A stretch of DNA of 35,975 bases from Methanosarcina spelaei (GTDB taxonomy: Archaea; Halobacteriota; Methanosarcinia; Methanosarcinales; Methanosarcinaceae), in contig NZ_LMVP01000268.1 in assembly GCF_002287235.1 (NCBI RefSeq), forward strand, positions 1 to 35,975, read 5' to 3'. The stretch's first letter is position 1. The number at the start of each line of letters is the position of its first letter. The position numbers and the translations under genes are program-made. The notes beneath the pieces were generated by a model. The model was not told the DNA's origin. It made no database searches and saw nothing but the letters and a program-made list of their open reading frames with translations. Positions 22,189 through 33,734 of this stretch are shown here, one piece after another.

Positions 22189-23880
22189 TTGAACACAGGA
22201 GAAGAGATTTTTGTGTTGAAAACAGAAGAGGAATTGGATTTTCTGGCAAGTGAAACCCTTAAAGCCAGGTATCTGCGTGAGGGAGAAAAGGACTGGAAGG
22301 ATGTCTGTGAGAGAGTTGCAAAGGCAGTTGCATTAACTGAGGAAGAGTATCTGGATTTCAAAGACCTCATGGTCAGGAAGATTTTTCTTCCAAGCTCGCC
22401 CACGCTTATGAATGCGGGTACTGAATTCGGACAGCTTGCAGCCTGTTTTGTAATTCCTGTGGAGGACGGAGTCGAGGAAATCTTCAATTCGATAAAAAGT
22501 GCAGCCCTAACCCAGAAAACGGGAGGGGGTACAGGGTTTGATTTCTCAAAAATACGCCCTGAAGGTTTTACCAGTTCATGTGGTAATAACTCGACTAGCG
22601 GTCCTGTAACTGTCATGAAACTGTTCAATGAGGCAACCGAGATCGTAAAACAATTTGGAAGGCGACGAGGTGCCAATATGGGCATCCTTGATGTTTCCCA
22701 TAACGATATCCTTTCTTTCATAAGGGCAAAGCATGTCGAAGGAGAGTTGAGCAATTTCAATCTCTCAGTTATGGTACCTGATGCTTTCATGGAACTTGTT
22801 GAAGCTAATAAGGCTGACGAAGTTTGGAACAGGCAAACAGGTGTGACAGTCGGGGATATATTTTCCGAGATTGTAGAGGGAATATGGAGAAATGGTGAAC
22901 CTGGCATTCTTTTTTATGACCGAATAAACAGAGATAACTTCACACCCGCCCTTGGTAACATCTCGGCTACAAATCCCTGTGGTGAAGAGCCACTTCTGCC
23001 TTTTGAAGCTTGCAACCTGGGCAGCATAAATCTTTCACTTTTCATTACAGACAGAAAGGTAAACTGGGACTTCCTCAGGGAAGTAGCCGGAAAAGCTATC
23101 CGTTTCCTGGATTACGAAATTGATAAAAATACATATCCTGTTCCGGAGATCGAAGTTGCAACTAAAAGGACCAGGAAAGTAGGGCTTGGAGTAATGGGGC
23201 TTCATGATATGCTTTTAAAGCTCGGGCTGCCCTATGACTCACAGGAAGCCCTCAAGCTTGCGGAAAAGCTTATGGAACAGATTACCTGGGCTTCGATCAG
23301 GGAATCAAGGAAACTTGCTGCTGAAAAAGGAAGTTTTCCGGAATATGAGGATTCCTCGTGGGAACTTCCAATGAGGAACGCTGCACTAACCGCAGTCGCT
23401 CCGACTGGCACAATCAGCATTCTTGCCGGTTGTTCGGCAGGAATTGAGCCTGTTTTCAGCTGGGTCTACAGACGAACTCAGACCGTAGGCAGGGAATTTA
23501 TGCTTGTTCATCCGTTTTTTAAGGCGTATTTCAAACCAAAACTGTCGGAAGCTGACTATGAATGGCTTCTGGAGCATGTCTATAAGTATGGTACGTTGCA
23601 GGATGTGGAAAATTCAGAACTTGTAAGTGAAGAGGATAAGCAGCTTTTCAGGTCAGCCCTTGATATTGACTGGAAGGCCCATATTGATATGCAGGCCTCA
23701 TTTCAACGGCACTGCCATGCCGGGATTTCGAAAACTATAAATATGCCTGGTTCCGCAAGAAAAGAGGATATCAAACAGGCTCTAGTTTATGCCTGGAAAC
23801 AGGGACTTAAGGGGCTTACTATCTATAGGACCGGAAGCAGACAGCATGTAGTACTCAGCCTCCAGAAATTTAAAAATTAG
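22189..23880 (+). CDS. nrdJ: Adenosylcobalamin-dependent (class II) ribonucleotide reductase
   Basis: A 563-aa class II ribonucleotide reductase, making deoxyribonucleotides with a B12-generated thiyl radical. Catalytic elements are intact: GQLAACFVIPVED (first redox Cys), ATNPCGEEPLLPFEACNLGS (Asn, radical Cys, Glu, then the second redox Cys), and AVAPTGTISILAGCSAGIEP. The N-terminal ATP-cone is absent. The protein stops soon after GLKGLTIYRTGSRQ and has no C-terminal CxxC tail that normally re-reduces the active site. The start is TTG (an in-frame TGA lies just upstream), with GGAG about 11 nt before it. The stop is TAG, then five codons (NYYCL) and TAA. A minisatellite follows at once. Confidence 0.9.
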   Translation: MNTGEEIFVLKTEEELDFLASETLKARYLREGEKDWKDVCERVAKAVALTEEEYLDFKDLMVRKIFLPSSPTLMNAGTEFGQLAACFVIPVEDGVEEIFNSIKSAALTQKTGGGTGFDFSKIRPEGFTSSCGNNSTSGPVTVMKLFNEATEIVKQFGRRRGANMGILDVSHNDILSFIRAKHVEGELSNFNLSVMVPDAFMELVEANKADEVWNRQTGVTVGDIFSEIVEGIWRNGEPGILFYDRINRDNFTPALGNISATNPCGEEPLLPFEACNLGSINLSLFITDRKVNWDFLREVAGKAIRFLDYEIDKNTYPVPEIEVATKRTRKVGLGVMGLHDMLLKLGLPYDSQEALKLAEKLMEQITWASIRESRKLAAEKGSFPEYEDSSWELPMRNAALTAVAPTGTISILAGCSAGIEPVFSWVYRRTQTVGREFMLVHPFFKAYFKPKLSEADYEWLLEHVYKYGTLQDVENSELVSEEDKQLFRSALDIDWKAHIDMQASFQRHCHAGISKTINMPGSARKEDIKQALVYAWKQGLKGLTIYRTGSRQHVVLSLQKFKN

Positions 23881-24339
23881 AATTATTATTGTCTGTAAAA
23901 AACAATAAGGCTGTAACCTTTAAAAAACAGAAAGCTGTAACCTTTAAAAAACAGAAAGCTGTAACCTTTAAAAAACAGAAAGCTGTAACCTTTAAAAAAC
24001 AGAAAGCTGTAACCTTTAAAAAACAGAAAGCTGTAACCTTTAAAAAACAGAAAGCTGTAACCTTTAAAAAACAGAAAGCTGTAACCTTTGAAAAATATAA
24101 AGTTGTGATCTGCAAAAAACTATAAAGCTGTAACTACTAAAAAACATAAAACTGTGATCTACAAAAACTATAGAGTTGTAACCTGTGAAAACATAAAAGT
24201 GTAACCTCTAAAATCTGTTTATTATCTAGAAACCGAATCAGGCGCCTGCAAAGAAGCCCGCATTATAAACAGTGTAATAAATATTCTAATGTGTTATCTT
24301 ACTAAAAATATATATACATTTAATCACTCTAAATAATAT
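23881..24339. other. Intergenic stretch: minisatellite and eamA promoter
   Basis: The left half is the 24-bp repeat array and its decayed copies. The right part holds an AAATATATATACATTTAA TATA element (about 24305-24322) some 20-35 bp before the eamA-family ATG. No ribosome site is visible, suggesting a leaderless message. Confidence 0.55.
23907..24215. repeat. 24-bp minisatellite with decaying 3' copies
   Basis: Seven nearly identical copies of AAAGCTGTAACCTTTAAAAAACAG (24 bp) occupy 23907-24074. Two diverged copies reach 24122, and increasingly degenerate 21-25-bp copies (TGTAAC...AAAAAC) run to about 24215. Because 24 is a multiple of 3, the array is open in frame and would encode KAVTFKKQ repeats from a TTG at 23889, but there is no ribosome site and I do not call it a gene. 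Confidence 0.9.
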
Positions 24340-29948: not shown

Positions 29949-30601
29949 AACACAAGCTGTTCAAATAAAAATAATGTAATTATAACGTATTGACAACTTA
30001 TTTCCTTTTTATTTACACGCTGAATCGAAAAAATTATCCTATTAAAAAGTCGTCCTTTATATGAATATTTTACTTAGGACGAAAAAGACTAAAGTGATGC
30101 AGTAGAGAAATAAGAAGAGTTATCCAACTTTTTCAAGAAAATAAACACTTTTTAAGACCTTAAATTGAATTTAGGTTGGATATAAAGCTTATAGGGGTCA
30201 TCAAGACAATATTTTTTGGTTAAGTATTCAATTCCAGATTATTGTTCCTAATTAGTTGAGAGCTTCAATAAAATTATAAGTTATACAATAAATGTAAAAG
30301 TAAGTTTGTTTTACTGACAGAAGGTTTGTTTAGTTTTATAAAGATTATTTATATTAAGAAACAGTTATTCTAGGTCTTTTATATAATTTATAATTCTATG
30401 TTAAATTGTACTTTCATGACAAGATTGTTCCTATATAATCGGAAATAAGTAACTCCACTAAATTTTAAAAAGTCGTCGTGAAAGTACTGTTGGGAGTGGG
30501 TGAGACCTTTAACTATAGGTATAATTCTCTAACCTGAAAAACCCACTATATGTCATTTGAAAAGTCTAAATAAAATAGCAAAAATCTTGGAGGTAAATAT
30601 A
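29949..30601. other. AT-rich gap: promoter and leader of cassette 1
   Basis: No ORF. The left 380 bp show nothing I can interpret. From 30332 begins the promoter block shared with the next two cassettes, followed by a leader of about 190 nt ending in a strong ribosome site. Within the leader AGTGGGT (about 30495-30501) can pair with ACCCACT (about 30539-30545). Confidence 0.5.
30332..30415 (+). promoter_or_regulatory. Conserved promoter block, cassette 1
   Basis: Contains AAGATTATTTATATTAAGAA, then GTTATTCTA, a TATA box TTTATATAATTTA (from 30378) and TTGTACTTTC about 28 bp further. The same ordered words at the same spacing occur before cassettes 2 and 3, so they are very likely upstream control element, TATA box and start region. 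Confidence 0.7.
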
Positions 30602-30691
30602 ATGTGGTTTGGTAACTGTGGCTGGGGTGGCTGCGGCGGCTGGGGTGGCTGCGGTGGCTGGGGCGGCTGCGGCTTATGGGACTGGTGGTAA
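30602..30691 (+). CDS. Tiny Gly/Trp/Cys-rich peptide, cassette 1
   Basis: A 29-aa peptide that I do not recognise. It has 13 Gly, 7 Trp and 4 Cys and is built on WGGCGG repeats (core WGGCGGWGGCGGWGGC), ending LWDWW. GGAGGT at 30589-30594 lies 7 nt before the ATG, the strongest type of ribosome site in this window. It has no signal peptide. Two paralogous cassettes follow at 31493 and 32644 with the same promoter, leader end and ribosome site, so selection acts on the expression of this peptide. Regular Cys spacing suggests metal binding or crosslinking, and the Trp-rich composition suggests a structural or interface role; both are guesses. Confidence 0.75.
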   Translation: MWFGNCGWGGCGGWGGCGGWGGCGLWDWW

Positions 30692-30750
30692 GAACAAACG
30701 CTAGGCCCAATGGCTGAGCTCAATAAATATTGAGTATGGATGAATAAAAG

Positions 30751-30809
30751 TAGTCATCACTTCAGGACAGAAAGGTCATTCCAGATTAATTGTCTTGAGT
30801 TGATGGCTA
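30751..30809 (+). ncRNA. Long hairpin downstream of cassette 1 ORF
   Basis: TAGTCATCACTTCAGGACA pairs with TGTCTTGAGTTGATGGCTA. Eighteen of 19 positions pair (three as G-U), with a 21-nt loop. It lies 60 nt after the stop. It may be a 3' stabiliser, terminator or separate small RNA; it occupies the place of the nested structures after cassettes 2 and 3 but differs in sequence. Confidence 0.5.
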
Positions 30810-31191
30810 TATATTTTATCACCTGTAGGTTAGCAACTACAAGCTTCATATGTTTGAAAGCGGGTTTCTATTCAGGCTGATTAAATTAAAAGTTCACTAT
30901 TTTATAAGAATAATTTATTTTAAAAAATAGGATACTTTCTTCTCAATATGTACAAGTGATAAGGTTTAAAAACCGAATGAGTAATACTATTTTCTTTTAC
31001 TAAACGCGCGTGTTTTGAGCCTTCAAATTGATTATAACCAGATGTTATAGCGTATCTATACCATCCAGGTTTTATTTTTGTATAAATATTAAATTGCAGA
31101 CTATAAGCCCTGGCTCACCGAGATATTTAAAAACTCAAGTTTTATAAATTAAATATAAAACTAAACATGATTTTTCAGCGTATGGTTTCAC

Positions 31192-31277
31192 AGCTTTTTC
31201 AATGACTATTTAATGTTAAGAATTTATTATTCTATTCTATTTATATAATTTACAATTATATTATTGATTGTACTTTC
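31192..31277 (+). promoter_or_regulatory. Conserved promoter block, cassette 2
   Basis: AGCTTTTTCAATGACTATTT, TTAAGAA, TATTATTCTATT, the TATA box TTTATATAATTTACAATT (from 31240) and TTGTACTTTC follow in order. It is nearly identical to the block before cassette 3, and recognisably the same as that of cassette 1. Confidence 0.75.
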
Positions 31278-31359
31278 TGGCAATTAAAGTTAAATCTGTC
31301 TCTTTTTAAGTGGATATAGATTATAACACGATTGTCAGGAGTAATAATAGAGTTGGGAA

Positions 31360-31388
31360 GTCGATATAAAATTTGATTTGAGAAATAT
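31360..31388 (+). promoter_or_regulatory. Leader box identical to that of cassette 3
   Basis: A 29-nt stretch, beginning GTCGATATAAAATTTG, is identical at 32519-32547, although the surrounding leader is only partly conserved. It is preceded in both by a conserved CAGGRGTAATAA and GTTGG. It lies in the presumed 5' untranslated region and could be a protein- or RNA-binding site. Confidence 0.6.
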
Positions 31389-31492: not shown

Positions 31493-31591
31493 ATGGGTGG
31501 AGGATTTGGATTATTTGGAAGAGGATTTGATGGTTGTGGCTGCGGCTGCGGCTGCGGCGGCGGCTGGGGCGGCTGGGGCGGCGACTGTTAA
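31493..31591 (+). CDS. Tiny Gly/Cys-rich peptide, cassette 2
   Basis: A 32-aa paralogue in style of the cassette 1 and 3 products. The N-terminal part is Gly/Phe (MGGGFGLFGRGFDG). The middle is CGCGCGC, then Gly with two Trp (GGGWGGWGGDC). Five Cys and two Trp in total; no signal peptide. GGAGGTAAATATA before the ATG is identical to the cassette 1 site. The GC-rich coding island in a strongly AT-rich setting, the preserved reading frame and the strong ribosome site support translation. Function unknown; alternating Cys-Gly runs could bind metal. Confidence 0.75.
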   Translation: MGGGFGLFGRGFDGCGCGCGCGGGWGGWGGDC

Positions 31592-31675
31592 GAGCAGGCG
31601 CTAAACCAATAGCCTAATGCTGACTAACCGAACCACATATTAAATAGACAAATATAAAAACATAAAACCAATGAT

Positions 31676-31792
31676 AGCTCATTCATGCAGCCCTTTGTCG
31701 GATATAGAAAGAGAACCTTGATTGTATCAGAGTTCTAAAATGTGCTGAAAGGTCTCTTCTGTAATTAACCGGCGCTTTTTAATGAATGAGCT
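31676..31792 (+). ncRNA. Nested structured RNA element downstream of cassette 2
   Basis: Three coaxial helices can form. The outer one is AGCTCATTCAT (31676-31686) with ATGAATGAGCT (31782-31792), perfect over 11 bp. The middle one is GTCGG (31697-31701) with CCGGC (31769-31773). The inner one is AAGAGA-A-CCTT (31709-31719) with AAGG-TCTCTT (31749-31758). The same arrangement recurs after cassette 3 with different bases. No T-run follows, so it is not an ordinary terminator. Confidence 0.65.
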
Positions 31793-32350
31793 CATCTATA
31801 TTTATTAGTCCATTACTAACGCAGTTTAGAACCAGTCTTATAAGAATTTGATATAATTGTGAACACCTTTACAGATCTAAAAAAAGAGATCTGCATTTAC
31901 TTATTTTCCCACAGTTACTCTAATTTTTCATGTTATCTAGGTGTGAGTCATATACTAGAATTTATTTAGTTATTCCAACTGCAGTTAAGATTTATTCTTT
32001 TTAGTTCGGTTTTCGGGAGTATTTAATTTAAATAGGAGTTTATGTACTTAAAGCAAATAATTAATCTTATGAATATCATTTCATGAGTAGTTCACTTTTA
32101 TATAAAAATCTTAGAGTACTAAGGTTCAAAAATCATATAAGTGACTCTATTTTTGTTTGTTAAATTGACTTATATTAAGCCTCTAAAAAGGGCATAATCA
32201 GAGAATATAATGTATTTATACCATAGAAGCTTTATTTTTTGGTTAAATATAAAATTAAAAACTTGAACTCCTGGTTTTATATAAATTAAAGGAATTAAAA
32301 TTCGTAAATTAAGCTTGAAATTTAACGCGTTTTACGGAGCATGATTTCCC

Positions 32351-32436
32351 AGCTTTTTCAATGACTATTTAATATTAAGAACATATTATTCTATTATGCT
32401 TATATAATTTACAATTATATTATTAATTGTACTTCC
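32351..32436 (+). promoter_or_regulatory. Conserved promoter block, cassette 3
   Basis: Same ordered words as cassette 2: AGCTTTTTCAATGACTATTT, TTAAGAAC, TATTATTCTATT, TATA box TTATATAATTTACAATT (from 32400) and TTGTACTTCC, followed by a leader of about 215 nt. Confidence 0.75.
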
Positions 32437-32643
32437 TGATAACTGAAGTTAAACTGATTTTTCTTCACGCGAAGACAGACCACAATGCGATTATCAGGGG
32501 TAATAAAATAGTTGGTGGGTCGATATAAAATTTGATTTGAGAAATATTACTCGAATCATATATTATATCTACTAAAATATATAAAATATTAGATCAATTG
32601 ACTAAAAAAGTGATAAAATATAGTAAATATGGAGGTAAATACA

Positions 32644-32856
32644 ATGGGAGGATTTCCGTTCTTTAAAAAGTTCGATAATTGTGGCTGTGGCTGTGGCTGT
32701 GGCTGCGGCGGCGGCTTTGGCGGCTTTGGCGGCTTTGGTGGTTTCTTTGGCGGCGACGGCTGTGGTTGTGGATGCAAAAAGGAGAAAGAGGTTTGTTGCA
32801 TAACAGCAGTTCGTGCCTGTAAGATCAAAGGCGACGAATGTGGCGGCTGGTGGTAA
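32644..32856 (+). CDS. Gly/Cys-rich small protein, cassette 3
   Basis: A 70-aa protein, the longest of the three. It has an aromatic/basic head (GGFPFFKKFDN), a CGCGCGCGC run, GGF repeats, and a second CGCGC run. A distinct non-repetitive tail follows (KKEKEVCCITAVRACKIKGD, then ECGGWW). Twelve Cys in total and no signal peptide. GGAGGTAAATACA before this ATG matches the other cassettes, so I reject the ATG at 32629, which overlaps that ribosome site. The tail with its CC pair looks like a small functional or recognition domain. A compact hairpin TTGATCAG-ATA-CTGATCAA (32863-32881) follows the stop. Function unknown. Confidence 0.8.
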   Translation: MGGFPFFKKFDNCGCGCGCGCGGGFGGFGGFGGFFGGDGCGCGCKKEKEVCCITAVRACKIKGDECGGWW

Positions 32857-32937
32857 GAGAGATTGATCAGATACTGATCAATCACTCTGACTTATCAACC
32901 ACAAATTCAATAATTAAGTAAAATATAAAACCAAAGT

Positions 32938-33068
32938 GGGCTCATTTGTACAATCCTCTGCCGGGGTGCAGAAGCAGGAGAACCTTAATTGCACAGAACC
33001 TTGAAATTTATTAAAGGTTTCTCCTGCATTTAACCGGCACTCATTTGAAAGGACTAACGAATAAGCCC
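32938..33068 (+). ncRNA. Nested structured RNA element downstream of cassette 3
   Basis: The same three-helix plan as after cassette 2. Outer: GGGCTCATTTGT (32938-32949) with ACGAATAAGCCC (33057-33068), one mismatch and one G-U in 12. Middle: TGCCGG (32959-32964) with CCGGCA (33034-33039). Inner: GCAGGAGAACCTT (32974-32986) with AAGGTT-T-CTCCTGC (33014-33027), 13 bp with one bulge. Pairing is kept while bases differ, which supports a selected RNA structure. Confidence 0.68.
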
Positions 33069-33337
33069 TATGTCATTTTATTCATCCATTACTTATAATT
33101 TTATCGAAAAAATAACCACATATAACCACATAAGAACTCAAACAATTTAATTTCGGGCACTTTAATTCTGGACACTTTAATTCTGGACATTTATAAATAT
33201 ATTAGAACAGAGTTTCAGATATGATGCTTTTTTAATCTCGGTTTTGAAAGTGCTTCATTATAGGACTTTATCAAACTAAAAGTATCTCTGTCATGCTTTT
33301 GGTTTTTTAACGCATTCAAGTTATCATTTATCATCAC

Positions 33338-33460
33338 TTTTTCTCGATTTAGAGAAGTCTTATAATTTCCTTACTTTCTTTTTTCTCGATTTAGAGAAGT
33401 CTTATAGTTTCCTTACTTTCCTTACTTTCCTTACTTTCCTTACTTTCCTTACTTTCCTTT
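33338..33460. repeat. 42-bp direct repeat running into a 9-bp tandem array
   Basis: A 42-bp unit (TTTTCTCGATTTAGAGAAGT and following bases) occurs twice in tandem, at about 33338 and 33380. The second copy runs into five perfect copies of CCTTACTTT (33411-33455) plus a partial one. The array is a growing simple-sequence tract and is not in a gene. Confidence 0.85.
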
Positions 33461-33734
33461 ATTCCATGGTTTACAGTTTCACTTCACTTAAAAGTATAAT
33501 TATAGAACAGTAGCGTGAACATAATCCCTCACAGATTCTTGCAAATTTTTTATAGAGAATGTTTTCTTAACATCTTATTCACCAGATATTTAGTAACCTA
33601 TTTTCTCCTTATGAAGGTTTTCCACCTGTTATAATAATTTATACGAATGATTAACTTTTTATAGTCCAATGAGTCTATTTTTAATCATTGAGTGATTTTA
33701 CTAAATTTGAGAAGTATTAGTGGGGGAAATTATT

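Follow-up and report, generated by a model that had tools for sequence, protein, structure and literature searches.

The locus studied here raises the question whether a folded RNA behind two neighbouring small genes is maintained as such and, if so, what it does for them. The window, a stretch of 35,975 nucleotides of Methanosarcina spelaei DNA, carries three tandem cassettes, in each of which a small Gly/Cys-rich ORF lies between a conserved upstream region and a 3' hairpin. The genes upstream of the array presumably are ileS and a DUF115/MptE-like gene, as judged by reading their sequences. The upstream regions of cassettes 2 and 3 share 80% identity across 218 nt; these two cassettes are therefore duplicates, and their likeness alone is no proof of selection on the RNA. 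An earlier note on this DNA had taken the likeness of the two 3' regions as a sign of conserved pairing. Much of this likeness reflects the shared ancestry of the duplicated cassettes, but the pairing itself is maintained. To our knowledge, conserved structured 3'-UTR elements have been little described in archaea.

Nested 3' structures in the window

In cassettes 2 and 3 the 3' structure begins 81-84 nt behind the stop codon of the small Cys/Gly-rich ORF (Table 1). The outer, middle and inner helices (P1, P2 and P3) that the earlier note had described were recovered in the same order with spans of 117 and 131 nt, and both elements fold better than shuffled sequence. The minimum free energies amount to -39.5 kcal/mol for cassette 2 and -43.5 kcal/mol for cassette 3 (z-scores of -3.4 and -3.0), and 1 and 2 of 200 dinucleotide shuffles, respectively, folded equally well. 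Within the predicted whole transcript the element keeps the same fold. Pairing between the 5' leader and the 3' element was not above that of shuffled sequences (z from -0.5 to +2.5).

Table 1 Features of the three cassettes.
Feature	Position	Strand	Remarks
ORF1, cassette 1	30602..30691	+	Conserved ORF, MWFGNCGWGGCGGWGGCGGWGGCGLWDWW
Long 3' hairpin, cassette 1	30751..30809	+	Predicted fold, followed by TATATTTTATT (UAUAUUUUAUU)
Upstream region, cassette 2	31171..31388	+	Promoter-like stretch and start of leader; 80% identical to 32330-32547
TATA-like TTTATATAAT, cassette 2	31240-31249	+	Putative promoter and transcription start
Leader hairpin, cassette 2	31277-31284 / 31331-31338	+	CTGGCAAT / ATTGTCAG
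ORF2, cassette 2	31493..31591	+	Conserved ORF, small Gly/Cys-rich protein MGGGFGLFGRGFDGCGCGCGCGGGWGGWGGDC; GGAGGT start signal
3' element, cassette 2	31676..31792	+	P1 31676-31686/31782-31792 (AGCTCATTCAT/ATGAATGAGCT); P2 31697-31701/31769-31773 (GTCGG/CCGGC); P3 ~31704-31719/31747-31762
U-rich tail, cassette 2	31797..31808	+	CTATATTTATTA; position conserved in alignment A2; likely 3' end region, putative termination
Upstream region, cassette 3	32330..32547	+	Leader hairpin CTGATAAC 32436-32443 / ATTATCAG 32490-32497
ORF3, cassette 3	32644..32856	+	Conserved ORF, MGGFPFFKKF...KKEKEVCCITAVRACKIKGDECGGWW
3' element, cassette 3	32938..33068	+	P1 32938-32949/33057-33068 (GGGCTCATTTGT/ACGAATAAGCCC, single C-A mismatch); P2 32960-32964/33034-33038 (GCCGG/CCGGC); P3 32974-32986/33013-33027
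U-rich tail, cassette 3	33074..33082	+	CATTTTATT; conserved in alignment A2; putative termination

A U-rich stretch lies 3' of the outer helix (UCAUUUUAUUC; AUAUUUAUU in the window copies; UUAUUUUACAUUUUUU in relatives). The earlier statement that no U-tract follows is correct for a perfect U-run, but most copies do have a degenerate, interrupted U-rich stretch after P1, with a higher U content in the signal-peptide genes described below. The hairpin of cassette 1 matches the elements of cassettes 2 and 3 in position and differs from them in sequence; its helix is retained across species with both arms changing. At the matching place cassette 1 combines a U-rich tail with a hairpin of unrelated sequence, which argues for a structural role of the folded 3' end. 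The foot of this hairpin (30736-30749) is perfectly complementary over 14 nt to the tail of cassette 3 (33076-33089). Cross-talk between the two is not claimed, since the cassette 1 stretch also pairs with its own U-rich tail.

On the 5' side, the upstream regions 31171-31388 and 32330-32547, as well as 30348-30415, are ~85-96% identical between species, above the expectation for a spacer. The leader helix is retained in most of 15 copies, and its arms covary between cassette 2 (CTGGCAAT/ATTGTCAG) and cassette 3 (CTGATAAC/ATTATCAG). ORF2 is shorter than its orthologues and does not contain the C-terminal CITAVRAC part that is conserved in the nearest relatives. Short tandem repeats are also present in the window, with a KVTAFCFL-coding unit at 23870-24115 (minus strand) and TACTTTCCT units at 33338-33470.

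Homologues of the element within Methanosarcina

BLAST searches with the element returned copies in further genomes of the genus, 3' of the same type of ORF, and all named records containing the conserved upstream sequence belong to Methanosarcina. In eight genomes the cluster adjoins ileS, syntenic with the window. The earlier note had proposed a genome search with a covariance model. A model built from 16 copies (R1) located the element in 16 of the 31 genomes of Methanosarcina, whereas none of 155 genomes from other genera in the order gave a match under stricter filters, which weak copies could escape. R1 scored the cassette 2 element at 139.7 bits (match 31664-31811) and the cassette 3 element at 172.6 bits, and it matched between 0 and 5 places per genome, tied to a single gene family. 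Genome G015 holds a diverged copy. At L030 (G016:C1:852588-852747) the 3' element is kept with good pairing, and the cassette ORF and promoter are lost; this hints at decay in progress or at an independent role.

Pairing is maintained among homologues

Copies from other species keep the pairing. In the alignment of 16 copies 95.3% of the pair cells are paired, a share that falls to 36-49% on shifting the partner by 1-3 columns. For a large form of the element (14 copies, 47 pairs) the value is 92.4%, and a tree-based null that keeps the substitutions per branch and reassigns their positions gives 64.3 +/- 4.2%; as the structure of this form was derived from the same alignment, its pairing figure is favoured. 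When the arms of the outer helix were found by sequence only, 86.9% of cells were paired among 28 copies, against 60.4 +/- 6.9%. Read on the sense strand, G-U cells outnumber A-C cells by 105 to 25 in the large form and by 36 to 13 in a further count, as expected for an RNA of that strand. P1 alone did not separate the strands in 28 copies (21 G-U and 23 A-C).

Covariation at the level of single pairs is modest to weak. In the large form both-sided changes occur in 16 pairs, and one of the 47 pairs covaries at E<0.05. The covariation sum of P1 in 28 copies did not exceed that of the tree null (117 of 500), and an R-scape-like test of all pairs in 21 copies gave as top signals differences between the cassette 2 and cassette 3 types and no base pairs. 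Strong sequence conservation leaves little room for covariation, and maintained pairing and recurrence are therefore the main support for the structure.

The element accompanies a family of small Cys-rich proteins

Weaker R1 matches lie 3' of genes for secreted repeat proteins, in which a typical signal peptide (KKTLxIFMLVLFVASxTAASVSA) is combined with Cys/Asp/Lys/Arg repeats. A second covariance model (R2), built solely from five copies behind secreted repeat proteins, recovered the window-type copies, mostly with E between 6e-11 and 1e-3; the two groups are therefore homologous. The cassette 2 element matched R2 with an E of 1.2e-6 and the cassette 3 element with 1.4e-5; the latter also matched the model of the large form (R3) with 1.6e-7. 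The protein classes are linked as well. The C terminus of one signal-peptide protein reads CFITAVRAGC, and others contain KVFNLRGA; both resemble C-terminal motifs of the proteins from the leaderless cassettes.

The signal-peptide genes have a common promoter type and a conserved leader. A promoter-like motif (pattern TTYCTNATTWWTATTTCKNTANNTATTATATYYT; L110-L139) occurs in 29 of the 31 Methanosarcina genomes, and the reversed pattern had no match. The motif lies ahead of genes for signal-peptide repeat proteins and of some other genes. Among 30 loci picked by this motif alone, 22 encode signal-peptide repeat proteins, and a sense-strand R2 match (E < 0.01) follows downstream at 15 of these 22 and at none of the 8 others; the count of 15 is partly model-dependent, as three R2 seeds are among these loci (L123 and L125 hold L031 and L032). 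The genome of the window has a further gene of this kind elsewhere (G000:C518).

In an automated check, a family ORF preceded the element in the sense orientation at 14 of 18 loci, in the antisense orientation at 0 of 18, and at 7 of 400 random positions. Three of the four missed loci do have a family ORF, which the start-signal or signal-peptide pattern of the filter overlooked. Across homologues the element thus lies downstream of the stop codon in sense orientation, the position of a conserved structured 3'-UTR element, and its conservation extends to subfamilies between which the coding sequences can no longer be aligned. The element also points to a hitherto undescribed family of small proteins that are rich in Cys and often secreted.

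An extra arm in some paralogues

Several paralogues have an extra arm, P4 (AGGAYTTAYGC...GCGTAARTCCT), which is absent from the window copies. R3 gave many partial matches to the P4 arm only, 3 to 59 per genome in 30 of 31 genomes. Of 12 dispersed examples inspected, with L158 not judged, most are intergenic and have matching terminal inverted repeats. The dispersed repeat is ~118 nt long (L159-L169; R3 positions ~100-221), is bounded by AGGACTTACGC and GCGTAAGTCCT and is MITE-like, with copy numbers from several to dozens in a Methanosarcina genome, one version of it being the P4 arm. P4 has the look of a MITE-type repeat that the 3' RNA acquired.

Proposed role and alternatives

We propose, with a probability of about one half, that this conserved RNA acts in cis in the 3' UTR of Methanosarcina genes for small, repetitive Cys/Gly/Asp-rich proteins, many of which have signal peptides, and that it defines or protects the 3' end of their mRNAs. 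The starting point is what the computations establish, i.e., the presence of the element, its position and sense orientation, its conservation, its association with these genes and its maintained pairing. We infer that it would be transcribed together with the upstream ORF and that the RNA would fold into a single long nested hairpin, P1-P2-P3, with P4 added in some paralogues. Transcription would most likely end in the U-rich stretch after the hairpin, and the folded tail would fix the 3' end and shield the short mRNA from 3' decay. As a hairpin was reported to be dispensable for archaeal termination (PMC8716108, PMC7289017), the termination part may be idle. The sequence in and beside the 5' arm of P1 is near-invariant, which suggests that the sequence itself may be read, and a protein may accordingly recognize recurring bases there (CUCAUUCGUACAGUCCU). 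This near-invariance exceeds the needs of a mere barrier and counts against simple 3' protection. The copy at L030, the weak covariation of single pairs and the G-U and A-C counts of P1 also speak against our proposal.

An unlikely but still sizeable alternative is that the element binds a regulatory protein, or as an RNA senses a ligand or the temperature, and in this way coordinates the whole gene family. Unpaired or partly paired UACAGUCCU and GACCGGCA recur across subfamilies, and the same genes have a common promoter type and conserved leaders; however, there is no known binding protein, and the leader does not pair with the element beyond chance. A wider version, to which we give a comparably small chance, would place the genus-wide family under dedicated post-transcriptional control through its promoter type, its conserved, partly structured leaders and the homologous branched 3' RNA, read by a putative trans-acting factor; in some members a MITE-like repeat would have been recruited into the fold as an additional arm.

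Next in order, and doubtful, stands an independent small RNA acting in trans on other mRNAs, or a precursor of one. Bacteria have 3'UTR-derived small RNAs, several homologous copies with near-invariant stretches occur per genome, and the copy at L030 persists without ORF and promoter. Yet a family ORF nearly always precedes the element, the apical loop varies from one subfamily to another, and no conserved promoter was seen at a suitable distance. Transcription from the A/T-rich TATAAAAC upstream would start inside P1, and a promoter directly upstream of the element was rejected for its geometry.

It is improbable that the element is an ordinary terminator hairpin whose likeness was inherited through cassette duplication. 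The cassettes are duplicates and a U-rich tail is present, but with ~120-290 nt and three or four helices the element far exceeds the size of a terminator hairpin, archaeal terminators are reported without hairpins, the element is conserved across subfamilies with non-aligning coding sequences, and pairing is retained above the tree-based null. The view of the earlier note, a conserved 3' RNA rather than a simple terminator, agrees with the pairing kept in other species, with the genus-wide occurrence behind related genes and with the absence of an Rfam family. A mobile palindromic repeat of the MITE or REP type is highly improbable and largely refuted for the P1-P3 core, as the likeness to a dispersed repeat concerns the P4 arm of some paralogues, the window copies do not have this arm, the core is not dispersed but tied to family genes at no more than five R1 places per genome, and the locus is syntenic beside ileS in eight genomes.

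As the preferred 3'-UTR element occurs genus-wide in a genus with genetics, a possible role in mRNA stability or 3'-end formation is directly testable.

Relation to known systems

Rfam 15 gave no match to the element, neither at the gathering cut-off nor at E up to 1; one chance microRNA match at L136 was below the cut-off and outside the element. Pfam and NCBIfam returned nothing meaningful, with no match for ORF3, and the plasmid collection returned no match. A single-motif search allowing one mismatch was set aside, as its matches outside the family were mostly chance occurrences in unrelated genes. An earlier description was not found in the literature covered, which excludes most subscription journals.

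Published work describes archaeal termination as dependent on a U-tract but not on a hairpin (PMC8716108, PMC7289017). The U-rich stretch behind the element would match archaeal U-tract (aCPSF1-dependent) terminators if the transcript ends there. No upstream hairpins are reported for these (PMC8716108), whereas the stretch described here comes after a long conserved RNA of several helices. Bacterial intrinsic terminators do combine a hairpin with subsequent U-rich RNA. In place of their short GC-rich hairpin and uninterrupted U-run, however, the window copies show a nested fold of 117-131 nt and an interrupted tail; the element is much longer, contains internal loops, has a degenerate U-tract and is conserved in sequence across a gene family. 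MITE/REP-type repeats share with it the terminal inverted repeats (AGGACTTACGC..GCGTAAGTCCT) found in P4 of some paralogues and in the dispersed copies, but the P1-P3 core, the part present in the window, does not occur as a dispersed repeat. Structured 3'-UTR stabilisers and 3'UTR-derived small RNAs, mostly bacterial, likewise consist of folded RNA at the 3' end of mRNAs from one gene family; the element differs from them in being archaeal and in having no homology to catalogued families (Rfam). We regard it as a new RNA family within a known general type, the structured 3'-UTR element, and as unusual for archaea.
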